Of a stretch of 23,801 bases of DNA, positions 5,846 to 22,412 are shown piece by piece. This stretch comes from a virus, in IMG/VR virus record IMGVR_UViG_3300029448_000217, positions 7,985 through 31,785 of that record; one strand, written 5' to 3'. The position numbers were made by a program, and so were the translations under genes. The first letter of the stretch is position 1. Every line of letters starts with the position of its first letter. The notes beneath the pieces were generated by a model, which did not search any database, was not told the origin of the DNA, and saw only the letters and a list, made by a program, of their open reading frames with translations.

Positions 5846-6127
5846 TTACTTCAGAGTTCGAAGTTTCCATGTGACATTACCCCAAGACTTTTGAGCATAT
5901 CTATTATTAGATAGCTGAGCTTGAGTTTCGTACAAAGATGCTTCCATAGCCAATTCTCTAGCTTTCCTACGTCTAGTCGCCAAAGGTAATACCCTTAACT
6001 TAACGATAGCTTCTGCTAGAAACATATCAGGCTCTATATACAATACATCTTCAATAAATGTATCCACTTCAGGTGCTTCCTTCTTTTCAACATGACCAAC
6101 TTTAACTTTCTTTTTATCATCAAACAT
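5846..6127 (-). CDS. Basic hypothetical protein at the divergent switch
   Basis: The 93-residue protein begins with a lysine-rich, probably disordered stretch (MFDDKKKVKVGHVEKKEAPEV), followed by a helical, arginine-rich region (residues 38-70, LAEAIVKLRVLPLATRRRKARELAMEASLYE) and a polar C-terminus. The composition suits a nucleic-acid binder or small regulator. It is the first leftward gene next to the divergent region, with ATAAGGAGAATATC before the ATG and its own terminator downstream. No domain is recognised; it could regulate the rightward operon, by position only. Confidence 0.7.
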   Translation of the reverse strand: MFDDKKKVKVGHVEKKEAPEVDTFIEDVLYIEPDMFLAEAIVKLRVLPLATRRRKARELAMEASLYETQAQLSNNRYAQKSWGNVTWKLRTLK

Positions 6128-6370: not shown

Positions 6371-6589
6371 ATGGCTGAAGAATACAAAGAACTAAGTAAA
6401 TTAACTTTAGGCGAACAAGAGGACATTCTTCAAACTATGTCTGAGTCATATTTCCCCATACAAATAAACGATAGAGTATATATGATACCTGAAGAGGTAA
6501 ATGACCTTATAGATAGATTGGTACAAAGATTAGAACGTAATGGACATCAAGTAAATATAGGAGACTTAATTGGAGAAACAGACAATTAA
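6371..6589 (+). CDS. Small acidic hypothetical protein
   Basis: The 72-residue protein is acidic and helical at both ends (SKLTLGEQEDILQTMSES; EEVNDLIDRLVQRLERNGHQV) with a short strand pair FPIQINDRVYMIP between. It is the first gene of the rightward operon and overlaps the small terminase gene by 20 bases. Its own ribosome site is poor (AGAAAG), whereas a 10-codon frame with AAAGGA ends just inside it, so translation may be coupled. No family is recognised. Confidence 0.65.
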   Translation: MAEEYKELSKLTLGEQEDILQTMSESYFPIQINDRVYMIPEEVNDLIDRLVQRLERNGHQVNIGDLIGETDN

Positions 6590-7343
6590 AGGAGTGCCTC
6601 ACTATGTATATGATACATATGAGGAATTTAAAAAAAATTGCCCTAGTGAAGAATTACATGATGATTGGAGAACTGGTAATGAGGGAGATTGGGTAAGGTC
6701 TGATGATGGTAGAATTATACAATTATTAAAAGTAAGTAAAAATGTAAACCACCCAGGCGACAGAAAAAACTATAAATATGCTAATGGATGGGTAAGAACT
6801 GTTGTTGGTAGTTTTTTAAATAGGCATACAGTTAAAATGGATACTGATTTTTCACAACATCCTAATAGGTATACGTTTAGTAAAACAATTAAAGATACAA
6901 GTAAAAGAGTAAAAGAACGTACTAAGGTAACGAATAAAGAAAAACAATTTGCTACTAATGTTGTTGTAGGTATGGGTGCTGTTAAAGCATATCAAAAAGC
7001 ATACAATGAAATGTCAAAAAACAAAGCTGGTAAAAAAGCAGCTGTATTACTTAAACAGGAAAGAGTTATGAAAGAAATAGAAAAGTCAGTATTAGACGTT
7101 GCAAAAGGTTTAGGTATAGACCACGAGTATATATTAGAAAAACTAAAACATCTTGCTGATTATAGTGAAGATGATAATATTATATTGCAATCAACAAAAG
7201 AATTAGGAAAGATAGTAGGCACATCTGGAACTAATGTTAAGCAAATAGAGACTGGTATGATTGGAATGTTTCAAGGATTTGGTTCAGAAGATATACAAAT
7301 AGCAGATAGAACAAAACAAATAAAATCAGTAGAAGAGGAATAA
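6570..7343 (+). CDS. Terminase small subunit
   Basis: The start is a TTG at 6570 with TAGGAG six bases upstream; no in-frame ATG occurs until residue 90. The 257-residue protein has an unusual N-terminal extension (1-115) rich in charged and aromatic residues. A Terminase_2-type region follows: NKEKQFATNVVVGMGAVKAYQKAYNEMS (122-149) and KKAAVLLKQERVMKEIEKS (155-173), the helix-turn-helix core that recognises the packaging site, and then a helical oligomerisation region (174-220). It precedes the large terminase by two genes. It would form a ring that binds phage DNA and hands it to TerL. The N-terminal extension may be a separate domain of unknown role. Confidence 0.75.
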   Translation: MEKQTIKGVPHYVYDTYEEFKKNCPSEELHDDWRTGNEGDWVRSDDGRIIQLLKVSKNVNHPGDRKNYKYANGWVRTVVGSFLNRHTVKMDTDFSQHPNRYTFSKTIKDTSKRVKERTKVTNKEKQFATNVVVGMGAVKAYQKAYNEMSKNKAGKKAAVLLKQERVMKEIEKSVLDVAKGLGIDHEYILEKLKHLADYSEDDNIILQSTKELGKIVGTSGTNVKQIETGMIGMFQGFGSEDIQIADRTKQIKSVEEE

Positions 7344-7344
7344 T

Positions 7345-8403
7345 ATGATACAAAAAGATGCAGACAATAATATAGTTGGATGTGATAAATGTGGTTCTAG
7401 AAATATAAAAAAGGATGGATGGCAGTATTGGGCAAAAGGTAAAAAGAGACAAAGATGGCATTGTAAAGCTTGTAATAAAAAAATGCTTAATCCTAAGATT
7501 ATTGAAAAATCTCCATTCCAAGCAGAAGAAAGACCAGTTGATTTTGTACCTATAGATGAAATAATAAAACATAGAGAAAAACAATACAATCAAAAGTTAA
7601 AAGCTAAAAAGTCTAGAAAGTTAATTAATATTAAAATTAATCAAATGGGACCTATAGGTATACTCCATTTTGGTGACCCTCATGTAGATGATGATGGTAC
7701 AGACTTAGCTGAAATATATTCATTATGTGATTTAGTTAATAAAACAGATGGATTATTTGGAGGGAACTTAGGAGATATACAAAACAATTGGGTAGGTAGA
7801 CTTCAAGCATTATATGGACAACAATCAACATCTGCAAAAGAATCATGGAGACTTACAGAACATTTTGTTAATCAAGTAGATTGGTTATACTTAGTAGCAG
7901 GTAATCACGATGTGTGGAGTGGAGATGGTGACCCACTAGAATTTATAATGAGAGAACATAGTGGAGTATATGAACAATGGGGAGCAAGACTTAATCTTAT
8001 ATTCCCCAATGGAAAAGAAATACGAGTAAATGCTAGACATATGTTTAAAGGTAATTCAATGTGGAATACAGCTCATGGAGTAGCAAAAGCAGCTCAGATG
8101 GGATGGAAAGACCACATACTTACTTGTGGGCATACTCATGTATCAGGTTATCAAGTATTAAAAGATGCAGCTAGTGGACTTATTAGTCATGCATTGCAAG
8201 TAGCATCATTTAAAATAATGGATAGTTATGCAGACAAACTTGGGTTAGATGATAAGAATATCTTTAATGCACCAGTTACAATTATAGACCCTTACTATGA
8301 AGATGATGATAATAGATTAATTACTACTATCTTTAATCCATATGAAGGTGCTAAGTTTTTAGAATACAAAAGAAAACAATGGGAAAAATCGAAACAGAAA
8401 TAA
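7345..8403 (+). CDS. Calcineurin-like metallophosphoesterase with N-terminal zinc ribbon
   Basis: Residues 10-45 carry CDKC and CKAC (C13, C16, C40, C43) around a KKDGWQYWAKGKKRQRW loop, a zinc ribbon like that at the front of some transposases. Residues 100-290 hold the phosphoesterase motifs: FGDPHVDDDG (D111, H113), GNLGDIQ (D144), AGNHDVW (N187, H188, D189) and CGHTHVSG (H263, H265), with H232 as a further candidate ligand. This set binds two metals and hydrolyses phosphomonoesters, diesters or nucleic acid ends. The gene follows terS after one base and precedes terL. A role in DNA end processing during packaging, or in nucleotide signal removal, is possible; the zinc ribbon favours a nucleic-acid substrate. 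GAGGA precedes the ATG. Confidence 0.85.
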   Translation: MIQKDADNNIVGCDKCGSRNIKKDGWQYWAKGKKRQRWHCKACNKKMLNPKIIEKSPFQAEERPVDFVPIDEIIKHREKQYNQKLKAKKSRKLINIKINQMGPIGILHFGDPHVDDDGTDLAEIYSLCDLVNKTDGLFGGNLGDIQNNWVGRLQALYGQQSTSAKESWRLTEHFVNQVDWLYLVAGNHDVWSGDGDPLEFIMREHSGVYEQWGARLNLIFPNGKEIRVNARHMFKGNSMWNTAHGVAKAAQMGWKDHILTCGHTHVSGYQVLKDAASGLISHALQVASFKIMDSYADKLGLDDKNIFNAPVTIIDPYYEDDDNRLITTIFNPYEGAKFLEYKRKQWEKSKQK

Positions 8404-8555
8404 TTCTAATACCAATCCTTTCATATTGGGGATTAGCAAATAAAGGACCGAATCAACATTCACATCATCAACAAGGTCGTAAATCACAAAGTTATAAACA
8501 ATGGAAGTTTACTATAGATGGCAAATATAAATACACAGAACGTAAGCGAAGCTGA
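8379..8555 (+). CDS. Possible 58-residue bridging protein
   Basis: A frame from ATG at 8379 to TGA at 8555 overlaps the end of the phosphoesterase gene by 25 bases and the start of terL by 38 bases, filling the otherwise empty 114-base gap. The product begins MGKIETEIILIPILSYWGLANKG, then has a polar, histidine/glutamine-rich section and QWKFTIDGKYKYTERKRS. No good Shine-Dalgarno is present (only AGAAAA), but coupled translation from the gene before is possible. It is unrecognised. The fit to the gap argues for it, and the lack of a ribosome site against. Confidence 0.45.
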   Translation: MGKIETEIILIPILSYWGLANKGPNQHSHHQQGRKSQSYKQWKFTIDGKYKYTERKRS

Positions 8556-10083
8556 AGAAGCTCTAAAACTTGCATACACAGATTTAATAGCTTTTGGTAA
8601 ATTATTCTTACCTGATGATTTTTTACGAAGCGAAACACCATTCTTTCATTACGAAGTTGCAGACTCTATAGATAACAAAGAAGTAAAGCAATGTGCTATT
8701 ATTATACCACGAGGTCATGGTAAAACTGTTTTAACAAAAGCATCTATGTTAAAAGATTTTGTTTTCTGTAAAGACGATTTTCTTTTTTATGCTTGGGTAT
8801 CTGCTACACAAAAATTAAGTGTAGGTAATATGGATTACATTAGACACCACTTAGAATTTAACGATAGATTAAAATATTATTTTGGAAATTTAAAGGGGAA
8901 AAAATGGACAGAGGAAGATATAGAGTTAAGCAATGGATGTAAACTTATTAGTAAAAGCAATGTCGCAGGAATCAGAGGTGGAGCGAAATTACACAAAAGA
9001 TACGACCTCATCGTACTTGATGACTTCGAGCATGAAGCAAACACAATTACACAGGAAGCAAGAGATAAGAATGCTAATCTTGTTACTGCTGTTATCTATC
9101 CCGCTATTGAGCCTCACACTGGTCGTCTTCGTGTTAATGGCACTCCTGTACATTATGATTCTTTTATTAACAATCTTCTCAACAATCATGCAAAATCTAA
9201 AAAAGAAAATAAAGAATTTGCTTGGAAAGTAATTACATATAAAGCATTATTAGATAATGATACTCCATTGTGGTCATCTTTTTTTAATAAAAAGAAATTA
9301 GATGAAAAGAAAAAGTTTTATTCTGATAGTGGTATGCCTCAAAAATTCTATCAAGAATATATGATGGAAGTACAATCTGAAGAAGATGCTATATGGAAAA
9401 GAGAACACATTAGATATTGGAATGGATATTTTAAGAATGAAGATGGTGTTAATTATATTGTAAAAGATGGTGATGATATACCAGTTAATACATTTATTGG
9501 ATGTGACCCTGCTACAGATATTGATACAAAGCATTCTGATTATAGTGTTATGACTGTAATAGCTATTGATGCTAACAATGAATTATATGTATTAGAATAT
9601 GAAAGACATCGTAGTATTCCTACTATAGGTTCTAAGAATCCAGACACAGGAGACATTATAGGAAAGAAAGGTGTAGTAGATATTATTATAGAATTACATC
9701 AAAAATATAATTGTACATCATCTACAGTTGAAGATGTAGCAATGAATCGTAGTATATTTCAAGCAATGAATGACGAAAGAAGAAGATTAAATAAGTACGA
9801 TATATCCGTAATACCACAAAAACCAGGCGGTACACAGAAACGAAATCGCATTTATTCTGGACTTTCTGCACGTTTTAGTACAGGAACTGTACATTTACGT
9901 AAAAATATGTTTGATTTGATTAACGAAATACTTACTTTTGGCCCTAAAATGGCCCATGATGATACAATTGAATCACTTTATTACGCACAAATACACGCAT
10001 TTCCGCCAAGTATGAAAAAAAGTAAAGATAAAAAATCATGGTTTAAGCCAAAAAGAAAAGTTAAAAGTTGGTTAGTATCGTAA
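8518..10083 (+). CDS. terL: Terminase large subunit
   Basis: The 521-residue protein is the ATP-driven packaging motor and headful or site-specific nuclease. The ATPase domain has Walker A PRGHGKT (64-70), an adenine/coupling region YAWVSATQK (91-99), SNVAGIRGG (147-155) and Walker B LIVLDDFEHE (164-173). The nuclease (RNase H-like) domain has GCDPATD (D330), the second acidic site STVEDVAMN (E405/D406) and MAHDDTIES (D481, D482). The length is usual for the family. The C-terminus is very basic (KKSKDKKSWFKPKRKVKSW), a likely portal or DNA contact. The ribosome site is weak (GGAAG, ten bases from the ATG). Confidence 0.93.
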   Translation: MANINTQNVSEAEEALKLAYTDLIAFGKLFLPDDFLRSETPFFHYEVADSIDNKEVKQCAIIIPRGHGKTVLTKASMLKDFVFCKDDFLFYAWVSATQKLSVGNMDYIRHHLEFNDRLKYYFGNLKGKKWTEEDIELSNGCKLISKSNVAGIRGGAKLHKRYDLIVLDDFEHEANTITQEARDKNANLVTAVIYPAIEPHTGRLRVNGTPVHYDSFINNLLNNHAKSKKENKEFAWKVITYKALLDNDTPLWSSFFNKKKLDEKKKFYSDSGMPQKFYQEYMMEVQSEEDAIWKREHIRYWNGYFKNEDGVNYIVKDGDDIPVNTFIGCDPATDIDTKHSDYSVMTVIAIDANNELYVLEYERHRSIPTIGSKNPDTGDIIGKKGVVDIIIELHQKYNCTSSTVEDVAMNRSIFQAMNDERRRLNKYDISVIPQKPGGTQKRNRIYSGLSARFSTGTVHLRKNMFDLINEILTFGPKMAHDDTIESLYYAQIHAFPPSMKKSKDKKSWFKPKRKVKSWLVS

Positions 10084-10092
10084 GGAGTATAT

Positions 10093-10473
10093 ATGCCTAA
10101 GTTTGGTAAAAGGTCAAAAGAACGATTAAGAGGGATAGACGCAAGATTAGTTAGTGTCCTAAATGAATTAGTTAAAATTATGGATGTTACAATCATTGAA
10201 GGATTACGGAGTGAGCAACGACAGGAAAAGTTACTAAAAGAAGGCTCAACGAAAACAAAGTTCAGCAAACACATTACAGGAAAAGCTGTAGACCTCGCTC
10301 CATATCCTATTGATTGGAATGATAGAGATAGATTTCATTATATGGGTGGAATGATTAGAGGTATTGCAAAACAATTAAATGTTCCTGTTCGTTGGGGCGG
10401 CGATTGGGATTCTGATGGTGAAACAAAAGATAATCGTTTCGATGATTTAGTTCATGTGGAGATTAAAGGGTAA
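10093..10473 (+). CDS. M15-family peptidase (endolysin type, L-Ala-D-Glu endopeptidase-like)
   Basis: The 126-residue protein fits the short Peptidase_M15 endolysins such as the phage T5 enzyme. GLRSEQRQEKLLKEGSTK (37-54) precedes SKHITGKAVDLAPY (58-71), whose H60 and D67 match the S-x-H-x-x-G-x-A-x-D zinc site, and DDLVHVEI (117-124) supplies the catalytic acid region and the third ligand H121. It has no signal peptide or cell-wall-binding domain. It would cut the stem peptide of peptidoglycan at lysis or, given its place between terL and portal, could be packaged and used during entry. AAGGAGTATAT precedes the ATG, and the stop overlaps the portal ATG (TAATG). Confidence 0.85.
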   Translation: MPKFGKRSKERLRGIDARLVSVLNELVKIMDVTIIEGLRSEQRQEKLLKEGSTKTKFSKHITGKAVDLAPYPIDWNDRDRFHYMGGMIRGIAKQLNVPVRWGGDWDSDGETKDNRFDDLVHVEIKG

Positions 10474-18674: not shown

Positions 18675-21600
18675 ATGGCAGATAATTTACGAAAGTTCAC
18701 GACTCAAGAGGTCCTAAATAAAGTATACACAGATTCCTCTGGTATTACGATAGGATTAAACTCACAATCTTCAAAAGAAACATTAAACGCAGTATTAGAT
18801 AGTTCTAATAATAGGTTACAAGTAGCAATGGCAGGTGGTACAATATCTGGTGACGTTACTATAAGTGGTGATTTAACTGTAAGCGGTAGCGGTGGAATGG
18901 CTTTTTCAGAAGTCTTAACTGGTGATATGAAGATTACTACTTCAAGTAGTGCAACTGCTCTTTATATAGAATCATCAGATAGTGGTGCTTCTTTAATCCA
19001 ATTTACAAATAGCACAACTGGAACAACAGCAAACGATGGTTTAAAAATAGGTCTTGGTGACGATGAAGTTGGTTTGTTTAGAATGCAAGAAGCAAAAGAT
19101 ATGGTTTTTCAAACTGATAGCACCACTAGAATGACTATTGATTCATCAGGTCGTGTTGTAATTGGTCACACAGCCAATGTTGCTCTTGGGACTACAGACC
19201 CAGCACTTCAAGTATTAGGAACTAGTGAAGATGCTAGTCAAATTAGTATTGGTAGATTTTCAGCAGATGATACTGCTCCTAAGATTAATCTTATAAAAGG
19301 CAGAGGTGGAATTGGTGCAAATACTATAGTTACTGATAATGACAACTTAGGGACAATAAATTTTAGAGGAGCTGATGGTTCTGATTTAGATACTATTGGA
19401 GCATCTATTGAAGCTCGTGTAAATGGAACTCCCGGTGCAAACGATTTACCTGCTGAATTATTATTTAGCACTACTGCTGATGGTGCAGCTACTCCTACTA
19501 CTAGAATGATTATTACTTCAGCAGGTAAGGTTGGAATCGGAACTGGTGTAACGCCAACAATGAATTATCAATCAACTCATATTAAAGTTAGTACAAGTGG
19601 TTCAGATAGTATTCTTGGTATTGACAATGCAGGTAGTGGAACAACCAGTATTACAATGATAAGAAGTGCTGGTGTTCATACTTGGACTCATGGTGTAAAT
19701 ACATCAGGAAATTATGTTATTGCAAATCAACATAATGTTGGTGGTGCTATTAGAATGGTACTCGATGCCAACTCTCGCATTAGTCTTAGTAATAATGATA
19801 ATAATACTAGCAATACAGTATTTGGTAAAAATGCTTTTAACGCTAGTAGTAATAATGACTCAGATTTTAATGTTGTTATAGGTGAAGATGCAATGGCAAC
19901 TGGGTCTGTTAGCTCAGCTCAATACAATGTTGCAATTGGTTATAGTGCATTTACTGATTCCACAAGTGGAAAATATAACGTACTTATTGGAGCGGTTGCT
20001 GGTACAAGTTTAACTACAGGAGATGATAATGTTGCTATCGGTACAAATGCATTTAAGGATAGTATCGTTAATAAATATACAGTATCTATTGGTACACAAG
20101 CTTTAGAAAATATAACTGATGATGCAAATGATGGGTCTATAGCTATTGGATATAAAGCAGCTTCTGGCAAAGTAGGTAGTGGTGACCAATATACAACAGC
20201 TAGTGTTCATATAGGATTTCAATCAGCAGTAACTCAGACAACTGGAGCTAATAATACTTCAGTAGGTCACGCAACTATGGGTGGTAATGCTTCAGGAACT
20301 GCATTAACTGGTAGTAATAATACTGTTATGGGATATTCAGCAGGTTATGCAATGCAAGGCACATCACAGAATAATACTATTATAGGTGCTAGTGCTGGAG
20401 ATGCAATAACAGATACCGCTGATACAGTTTTAATTGGTTATGATGCTGGTGGTGCTATTAATCACGCCAATGGACAAGGTCAAGTATTTATTGGGGCACA
20501 AGCTGGTCACGAAATCACTCAAGGTGCTCATAATGTAGCAATCGGTTATTTAGCTCTTTCAAGTGCTGATAATGTTGAGTCTCACAATACAGCAATAGGT
20601 GCAGGTTCAATGCAAAATGTTGATAATGATTCATCAAATCATAATGTTGCTCTTGGAAAAAGTTCATTAATTGGTGGTAGTGGTGCATTAACTAATAATG
20701 TTGCAATAGGTTCTAATGCTCTTAATTCTACTGGTTCATACGATATAACTGGTGCAGTCGCAATAGGTTATGATGCTCTTACTGCTCTTACTTCAGGAAG
20801 TGGAAATACAGCAATTGGTTATAATAGTTTAAAAGAAGTTACAACTGGTAGCAACCTAACTGTTCTTGGTTATCAAGCTGGTGAATCTATAACTGATAAT
20901 GGACACTCAGTAATAATTGGGCAAGGTGCTGGAAGAGATGGCAATGTAGCAAGTTATAGCGTACTTGTAGGTAATTTTGCTGGGTATAAATCAACTGGAG
21001 ACATAACTGCTGTTGGTTCTTCGGCAGGTTCAAATTTAACAACAGGCATTAGAAATACTTACTTTGGAAGTTCATCAGGCTTTGGAAACCATACAGGAAG
21101 TTATAATACTTATGTAGGTTGGAGAAGTGGATATGGTGTAGCTGATAATGCTAATAATTCTAATACAGCAGTTGGTTACGCAACTTTAACATCAATTACA
21201 ACTGGTAGTAATAATGTTGCAATAGGAAAAAATTCATTACCAGCTAGTACAACCGCAGGAAATAATGTAGCTATCGGAATAAATTCGATGCTAAATATTA
21301 CAACTGGGCAAAGAAATGTTGCAGTTGGTTCGTTTTCAATGGCAATGAATAACGATGGAAATCCAAGAGAATCAGTTGATAATGTATTTATAGGATATAA
21401 CTCAGGTGGTGGTACTTGGGCAAATGTAGCTTCAAATCAAAATACTGCTGTTGGTGCAAACACAATGGATGCAGCTTGTAATGATGTAGATGACAATGTA
21501 GCTTTTGGTTTTAGTGCTCTATCTGCTTTAACAACTGGTAGTGATAATGTTGCTGTAGGTAGTGGTTCTCTTGTATTAAACACTACTGGTCATTCAAATG

Positions 21601-22412
21601 TTGCTATTGGTAAAGGTGCAGGAGCTGCAATTGTAGATGCTACATTCAATACAGCAGTTGGATTTAAAGCAGGAGATGGAACTGTAGATGGGGGTAGAAA
21701 TGTTTCATTAGGTGCTCACGCTCACGGAAACGCTGATACTGGCGACAAGAATATTGCAATCGGATATCAAGCTGGAAATGTTATTACTGGTAGCAATAAT
21801 ATTACTATTGGTAATCAATCTGGTGATTCAATTACTTCAGGAAACCATAATACTTTAATTGGAGATGAATCCGATGTAGATACTGCTACAGATTCTTATC
21901 AAGTAAAAATTGGTTCTTATGGAATTATAAAGTATAAAACTGCTAGAGTAACATTAAATTCATATAGTGCTGGTTTTAGTGCTGATAATAGAGCAGTAAC
22001 ACCAAATGGTGTATTTACAATTCCTAGATATTCTCATATAAGTAAAATTTGGGTAAAAGTAGTGACTTTAAGTGCTGGAACTGCTTTATATAGTATCTTT
22101 GTTGGTACTGCTGATGATGAAACAGCTGGTGAAGTTATCGCTGGTGGAGTAGAAATACTAGGAGCAAATTGTGATTCAGGATGTATTACTAGATGTGAGG
22201 GAACTGAAACTGCTAATTCTGATATTGTTGCATCAAGTGGAGGAGTCGTTGGTAGGACTTGGATATCTAGCATTAATGTAGAAACTGATAATTCACCAGG
22301 TTGGATGAGTGCCGCTACTAATGCAATTTATGTAGCTTGTGCAGGAACTGGAAATAATCAAACTGACCCCGGTGCAGATGCAGTATTAGATATTGGTGTA
22401 GAATATTATTAA
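18675..22412 (+). CDS. Giant tail fibre with about 39 YadA-head-like repeats
   Basis: The 1245-residue protein has a short N-terminal virion anchor (1-50) and beta-rich stem segments (50-375) including ISGDVTISGDLTVSG and TTRMTIDSSGRVVIG. From about residue 380 to 1065 there are roughly 39 repeats of the form N-(V/T)-A-I-G-x-x-A-(L/G), averaging about 18 residues; these are the left-handed parallel beta-roll of trimeric adhesins (YadA/Hep_Hag head). The last 180 residues form a distinct domain (IPRYSHISKIWVKVV to the final DIGVEYY) likely to bind the receptor. ATAGGAG precedes the ATG. It would trimerise into a fibre for host recognition. No chaperone or peptidase tail such as an intramolecular chaperone is seen. 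Confidence 0.9.
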   Translation: MADNLRKFTTQEVLNKVYTDSSGITIGLNSQSSKETLNAVLDSSNNRLQVAMAGGTISGDVTISGDLTVSGSGGMAFSEVLTGDMKITTSSSATALYIESSDSGASLIQFTNSTTGTTANDGLKIGLGDDEVGLFRMQEAKDMVFQTDSTTRMTIDSSGRVVIGHTANVALGTTDPALQVLGTSEDASQISIGRFSADDTAPKINLIKGRGGIGANTIVTDNDNLGTINFRGADGSDLDTIGASIEARVNGTPGANDLPAELLFSTTADGAATPTTRMIITSAGKVGIGTGVTPTMNYQSTHIKVSTSGSDSILGIDNAGSGTTSITMIRSAGVHTWTHGVNTSGNYVIANQHNVGGAIRMVLDANSRISLSNNDNNTSNTVFGKNAFNASSNNDSDFNVVIGEDAMATGSVSSAQYNVAIGYSAFTDSTSGKYNVLIGAVAGTSLTTGDDNVAIGTNAFKDSIVNKYTVSIGTQALENITDDANDGSIAIGYKAASGKVGSGDQYTTASVHIGFQSAVTQTTGANNTSVGHATMGGNASGTALTGSNNTVMGYSAGYAMQGTSQNNTIIGASAGDAITDTADTVLIGYDAGGAINHANGQGQVFIGAQAGHEITQGAHNVAIGYLALSSADNVESHNTAIGAGSMQNVDNDSSNHNVALGKSSLIGGSGALTNNVAIGSNALNSTGSYDITGAVAIGYDALTALTSGSGNTAIGYNSLKEVTTGSNLTVLGYQAGESITDNGHSVIIGQGAGRDGNVASYSVLVGNFAGYKSTGDITAVGSSAGSNLTTGIRNTYFGSSSGFGNHTGSYNTYVGWRSGYGVADNANNSNTAVGYATLTSITTGSNNVAIGKNSLPASTTAGNNVAIGINSMLNITTGQRNVAVGSFSMAMNNDGNPRESVDNVFIGYNSGGGTWANVASNQNTAVGANTMDAACNDVDDNVAFGFSALSALTTGSDNVAVGSGSLVLNTTGHSNVAIGKGAGAAIVDATFNTAVGFKAGDGTVDGGRNVSLGAHAHGNADTGDKNIAIGYQAGNVITGSNNITIGNQSGDSITSGNHNTLIGDESDVDTATDSYQVKIGSYGIIKYKTARVTLNSYSAGFSADNRAVTPNGVFTIPRYSHISKIWVKVVTLSAGTALYSIFVGTADDETAGEVIAGGVEILGANCDSGCITRCEGTETANSDIVASSGGVVGRTWISSINVETDNSPGWMSAATNAIYVACAGTGNNQTDPGADAVLDIGVEYY
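19810..21870 (+). repeat. Coding tandem repeats in the fibre gene
   Basis: The DNA here encodes the beta-roll repeats, each roughly 54 bases, with recurring words such as AATGTTGCAATAGG and ACTGGTAGTAATAA. Copies have diverged in sequence but keep codons for N-V-A-I-G. Such diverged repeats can recombine and change fibre length between relatives. Confidence 0.8.

Follow-up and report, generated by a model that had tools for sequence, protein, structure and literature searches.

Genes for the small (TerS) and large (TerL) terminase subunits flank a gene for a ribbon-headed metallophosphoesterase (MPE) in the DNA analyzed here, a stretch of 23,801 nucleotides (the window) from a 31,785-base virus record that has no completeness estimate. 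Does such a position indicate a function in DNA packaging, or does the enzyme have another task? The first-pass annotation had suggested an enzyme acting on DNA ends or packaging intermediates or, alternatively, a defense-signal phosphatase. We addressed the question using the family and predicted fold of the protein, the location of its homologues in other phages, and its inheritance relative to that of the terminase genes.

An intact phosphoesterase gene between the terminase genes

Replication-type genes occupy the minus strand of the window up to approximately position 6127, and structural genes are found on the plus strand from position 6371. Profile matches to the flanking genes confirmed that the MPE gene lies between the two terminase genes (Table 1). 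The TerS stop codon is 1 nt ahead of the MPE start codon, and the 114-nt gap between the MPE and TerL genes is bridged by a conserved small ORF. A homologous ORF is present in most of the close relatives checked, and a Pfam search with the small ORF gave no match. L020, L024 and L035 have a different small ORF in this gap. At L066 (2838-3230), a staphylococcal-nuclease homologue (PF00565, E = 9.4e-9) is located between MPE and TerL, and the TerS-TerL interval thus admits other nuclease genes. Walker A/B-like and nuclease-type motif strings were found in TerL. Farther downstream, a plus-strand ORF of 1245 aa (18675-22412) with many AIGY/AVGxxA-like repeats had no Pfam match at E ≤ 0.01 and is probably a fiber or adhesin-like structural protein.

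Table 1 Features of the window around the MPE gene
Feature	Coordinates	Strand	Remarks
Terminase small subunit (TerS)	6570..7343	+	PF03592, E = 4.5e-9
Ribbon-headed metallophosphoesterase (MPE), phrog_7339 family	7345..8403	+	352 aa, ATG start, ORF open and intact
N-terminal four-cysteine ribbon (Cys13/16/40/43)	7381..7473	+	IS1/IS1595-like by weak matches below curated cut-offs
MPE catalytic domain, residues ~100-335	7642..8349	+	Motif conservation; fold matches across residues 91-333
Small ORF, 58 aa, contains LSYWGLANKGPNQHSHH	8379..8555	+	Overlaps the MPE 3' end and the TerL 5' end
Terminase large subunit (TerL)	8518..10083	+	phrog_38, E = 1.3e-73
M15-type endolysin, immediately 3' of TerL	10093..10473	+	PF13539; phrog_465, E = 1.5e-39

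The five phosphoesterase motifs recognized in the first-pass annotation are all intact and in order in the window protein, namely, GDPH (residues 110-113), LGDIQNN (142-148), GNHD (186-189), RH (231-232) and GHTH (262-265). This ordered chain did not occur in any of 200,000 shuffles of the protein. The equivalents of the eight motif residues (D111, H113, D144, N187, H188, H232, H263 and H265) are invariant in an alignment of 33 sequences (A4), and pN/pS values of the catalytic domain against close relatives are mostly below 0.15. With its ordered motifs and MPE fold, the protein belongs to the metallophosphoesterase superfamily. The fused ribbon is also present as described: its cysteines are four of only six in the protein, and two CxxC pairs arose in 49 of 200,000 shuffles. 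Similarity to transposase ribbons was found at E = 0.11 for PF12760 and E = 0.014 for NF050000, both below curated cut-offs, and the AlphaFold2 model has beta strands in this region at residues 10-12, 21-28 and 34-40. The MPE gene is genuine and intact, and it belongs to a phage phosphoesterase family that is widespread and common in marine and freshwater viruses, with at least 600 matches in one pattern scan.

Similarity to DNA-acting phosphoesterases

The window protein matched phrog_7339, annotated 'DNA repair exonuclease', over residues 76-319 (profile positions 3-253 of 263, E = 1.3e-41), and so did all 44 relatives scanned from a diverse alignment. That annotation name denotes a putative function. 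The catalytic domain is shared by the other members of phrog_7339, which come from Thermus phages P23-45 and P74-26, Marinitoga camini viruses, Caldibacillus phage CBP1 and Moorella phage MTATph1. The Pfam catalytic-domain scores of the window MPE were weak and under curated cut-offs, and the gene escaped a PF00149 search of its own genome, since family members score too low against that profile. In sequence searches, neither the single protein nor a profile found a useful match among solved structures; a scan with the Thermus protein returned P23-45 itself and nothing else.

We used predicted structures only as far as the fold matches quoted here, the remaining matches excluding no family, and treated matches up to 1 Z apart as ties. 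The AlphaFold model of the window protein (mean pLDDT 82.9, pTM 0.70) best matched the proofreading exonuclease subunit DP1 of PolD (6t8h_A; Z 15.5, rmsd 4.3, 229 aligned), followed by MJ0936 (Z 14.9), the Pol-delta B subunit (14.8) and Mre11/SbcD (~13). The second model (pLDDT 83.8) represents a freshwater relative that has a head of helix-turn-helix (HTH) type in place of the ribbon. Its best match was again DP1 (Z 16.7, rmsd 4.3, 232 aligned), followed by Mre11 (~14) and LpxH (~13.5). The phosphodiesterase MJ0936 is tied with DP1 for the ribbon form and, for the HTH form, the lipid-A enzyme LpxH trails the top match by only approximately 3 Z; the fold alone thus does not fix the substrate. 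Together, the phrog_7339 matches and the two models favor a DNA-acting enzyme over a signal phosphatase, consistent with the DNA-acting side of the earlier proposal.

Archaeal DP1, a 3'-5' proofreading exonuclease and one of the closest known systems, shares the fold and catalytic motif set of the window MPE, at approximately 12% identity. DP1 is, however, a polymerase subunit with N-terminal domains of its own, paired with DP2 in the two-subunit D-family polymerase PolD, and the window MPE probably has no PolD partner. Mre11/SbcD shares the fold (Z ~13-14) and the five motifs. An SbcC/Rad50-type ATPase (PF13476) was found in 14 of 14 controls and in none of the possibly incomplete records of the window and nine relatives. 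RusA, considered as a resolvase that the MPE might replace, was present in 1 of 10 records. As virus records are fragments, little weight can be given to these absences.

Variation of the N-terminal head

The two-CxxC ribbon head is present in 56 of 100 family clusters (95% identity), and many others have an HTH-like N-terminal segment according to HTH_8 matches. The second AlphaFold model has a three-helix N terminus. Head type, ribbon or HTH, goes by lineage, and the Thermus and Marinitoga members (253-287 aa) have no head. A hypothetical protein of Pseudomonas phage IME307 (Detrevirus) is 44% identical to the window MPE over the catalytic part and has an HTH-type head; its gene is directly upstream of antiterminator Q, not between terminase genes. 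Within the MPE gene the head diverges faster than the catalytic domain. Synonymous divergence from the window among L010-L048 is often also higher in the head-coding part (e.g., 0.79 versus 0.42 in L010), possibly as a result of intragenic recombination. The heads resemble DNA-binding types and would bring the enzyme to DNA. The family is carried by many phage types, its active site is constrained and its head is interchangeable, all of which would fit an enzyme that combines one chemistry with varied targeting.

Location of the gene in other phages

We surveyed the position of the gene in the 100 clusters, a sample biased to the queries used, whose fractions are not natural frequencies. The TerS-MPE-TerL order was found in about one-third of them, all within one marine ribbon-headed group, of which they form a part. 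It is present in all window-like phages, and the arrangement orf6371-TerS-MPE-TerL-(M15)-portal is repeated across dozens of loci in the marine group of the window.

Elsewhere, the gene occupies other slots. An M15 peptidase precedes it in L110 and L062-L064, and a PF13539 peptidase, from the endolysin family found 3' of TerL in the window, does so in the freshwater clade. The preceding enzyme belongs to the GH108 family in L123, is a VanY peptidase in L251 and a lysozyme (GH24) in L248, and is GH19-type in L161; Thermus phages have an M23 peptidase together with a holin in this place. Several lineages thus have cell-wall hydrolases, from families unrelated to one another, no more than a few genes upstream of the MPE. 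In L096, L098 and L102, the MPE ends the structural genes, and no recognized endolysin was found within 6 kb of it. The upstream gene, usually a structural or lysis gene, is on the same strand in 91 of 99 clusters, and the MPE mostly occupies the lysis/packaging end of the late strand. This late location is not universal, since in Pseudomonas Detrevirus-like phages the MPE adjoins antiterminator Q and precedes the lysis and terminase genes by several genes. In the groups without the terminase position, records with an identified TerL place the MPE 11-31 kb from it.

An endolysin lies within four genes of the MPE in 8 of about 18 lineages, compared with about 2.4 expected (P ~0.001), a rough post hoc binomial estimate that assumes a background of 8/60, uses lineages and endolysins called partly by hand, and does not amount to proof. 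Endolysin calls are profile matches, with the exception of cl22, which is included in the 'lysis' class of the tree described below. This protein, encoded directly upstream of the MPE in 17 clusters, looks lysozyme-like by eye; as it had no match in Pfam, PHROG-function or PDB searches, it was not counted as a proven endolysin.

Other genes around the MPE were recorded as well. In the freshwater clade, a 118-aa HExxH protein is encoded directly upstream (L183:5639-5995 and 52 other loci), and a VRR-NUC protein is convergent with the MPE across the late/early boundary (L157:2485-2901, minus strand, and freshwater relatives). In Thermus phages, the second gene after the MPE codes for a putative metallopeptidase-like protein (L162:5443-5868). 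The 80.8-kb record of L123 (G016) has two MPE copies of the family, at ~4.2 kb and 54 kb.

Inheritance of the MPE and terminase genes

On a tree of 96 rows, whose long branches make deep placements unsure, the terminase position requires approximately 10 gains or losses, at least 6 of them forced by well-supported branches. We then compared divergence among 33 dereplicated loci with the TerS-MPE-TerL order. TerS and TerL distances were strongly correlated (rho 0.92), in contrast with MPE-TerS (0.42) and MPE-TerL (0.44). L010 and L011 differ by 0.9% in the MPE, 37% in TerS and 21% in TerL, and their DNA identity goes from ~0.7 in TerS to ~0.96 at the MPE start and ~0.8-0.9 in TerL. The TerL of L024 is within 5% of several relatives, and its MPE is 13-15% away from theirs. 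These results indicate that the MPE gene has been exchanged independently of its neighbors, which argues against a tightly co-adapted component of the terminase.

Possible functions of the MPE

The position in the window could mean that the MPE is a dedicated partner of the terminase and processes either DNA ends or intermediates of packaging, like the terminase-adjacent HNH endonucleases of other phages. The recurrence of the TerS-MPE-TerL order, with the 1-nt spacing after TerS, is in line with this, as is the order TerL-unknown-MPE-unknown-portal in Moorella phage MTATph1. However, the MPE has changed position many times and lies far from TerL in other phages, its divergence correlates poorly with that of either terminase gene, the L010/L011 exchange left TerS untouched, and the nuclease motifs of TerL itself appear intact. 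The stable linkage and co-inheritance that would mark a terminase-associated packaging nuclease were not found, and a search of the open-access literature gave no packaging role for the family. We consider a dedicated partner improbable. The first-pass view of a DNA-end or packaging enzyme is therefore retained for its DNA-acting side, and the packaging role drawn from the position between TerS and TerL is not. The first-pass annotation had taken scattered homologues unlinked to terminase genes as evidence against its proposal, and this pattern was largely observed.

A counter-defense phosphoesterase that breaks down a signaling molecule, whether a cyclic nucleotide or another, or that repairs RNA ends, appears improbable to a similar degree. 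Superfamily members do comparable work, such as D29 Gp66, reported as a 2',3'-cyclic phosphodiesterase (as cited in PMC10580990), and exchange between phages would suit an arms-race gene. Nevertheless, the best fold matches are DNA-acting MPEs, and heads of DNA-binding type are hard to square with a small-molecule enzyme. A PADLOC scan found no family at E ≤ 0.1, which counts for little since that library covers defense and not counter-defense proteins; nothing positive emerged for the defense-signal phosphatase of the initial proposal. A somewhat more doubtful reading is that of a host-takeover nuclease attacking the host chromosome. Its model, mycobacteriophage A10ZJ24 gp48, is an MPE with nuclease and phosphodiesterase activities that degrades DNA in vitro and in vivo and is required to kill one host (PMC12287305). 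The likeness is by analogy, both being phage MPEs, and gp48 is expressed early (PMC12287305), whereas the window-family gene is mostly on the late side. Lastly, the Pol-delta B subunit among the close fold matches recalls the inactive B subunits of eukaryotic DNA polymerases, which would make the protein a non-catalytic scaffold or regulator with the head as its working part. This is highly unlikely given the invariance of all eight motif residues and the strong purifying selection on the catalytic part and not on the head.

The explanation we prefer, to which we give about an even chance on the basis of sequences and models, is a DNA-directed MPE nuclease acting around packaging and lysis and encoded by an exchangeable cassette in the lysis/packaging block. 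The head, a ribbon here and an HTH in other lineages, would bring the enzyme to DNA, where a PolD-DP1/Mre11-like two-metal center, by analogy likely with Mn2+, would cut phosphodiester bonds. Made along with the late genes, the enzyme might trim or clear DNA ends, branches, and unpackaged or host DNA. The gene is passed between phages and has settled in a few preferred late slots, of which the TerS-TerL interval is one. DNA degradation by the mycobacteriophage MPE gp48 lends this explanation some outside support, against which its early expression must be set, and T1 gp16 provides a further parallel.

A similar-looking gene occupies a comparable place in T1-like coliphages. Gp16 of coliphage T1 has an HTH-like N-terminal segment and MPE motifs, and it is encoded near HNH, holin, endolysin and spanin genes. 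This T1-type module is reported to be stable in 508 of 522 Drexlerviridae, and its authors group the exonuclease with the lysis-cassette locus (PMC13164509). T1 gp16 matches phrog_704, not phrog_7339, and hhalign found no significant similarity between it and alignment A2, so that we handled it as a tractable analogue and not as a homologue.

The location of a gene between two terminase genes thus appears to be weak evidence for a packaging role. More speculatively, and on balance unlikely, MPEs with interchangeable DNA-binding heads beside lysis/packaging genes might form a recurring class of 'exit' nucleases that remove or trim DNA when packaging gives way to lysis. Such a class would span unrelated phages, marine, freshwater, Thermus and possibly T1-like coliphages, and the presence of a similar-looking gene in the latter makes the idea testable in an Escherichia coli system. 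The MPE family has so far been known just as 'DNA repair exonuclease' or 'hypothetical protein'. Its proximity to several unrelated types of cell-wall hydrolases and its swappable head point to a common task in the final stage of the phage cycle, one that is absent from the standard models of packaging and lysis.
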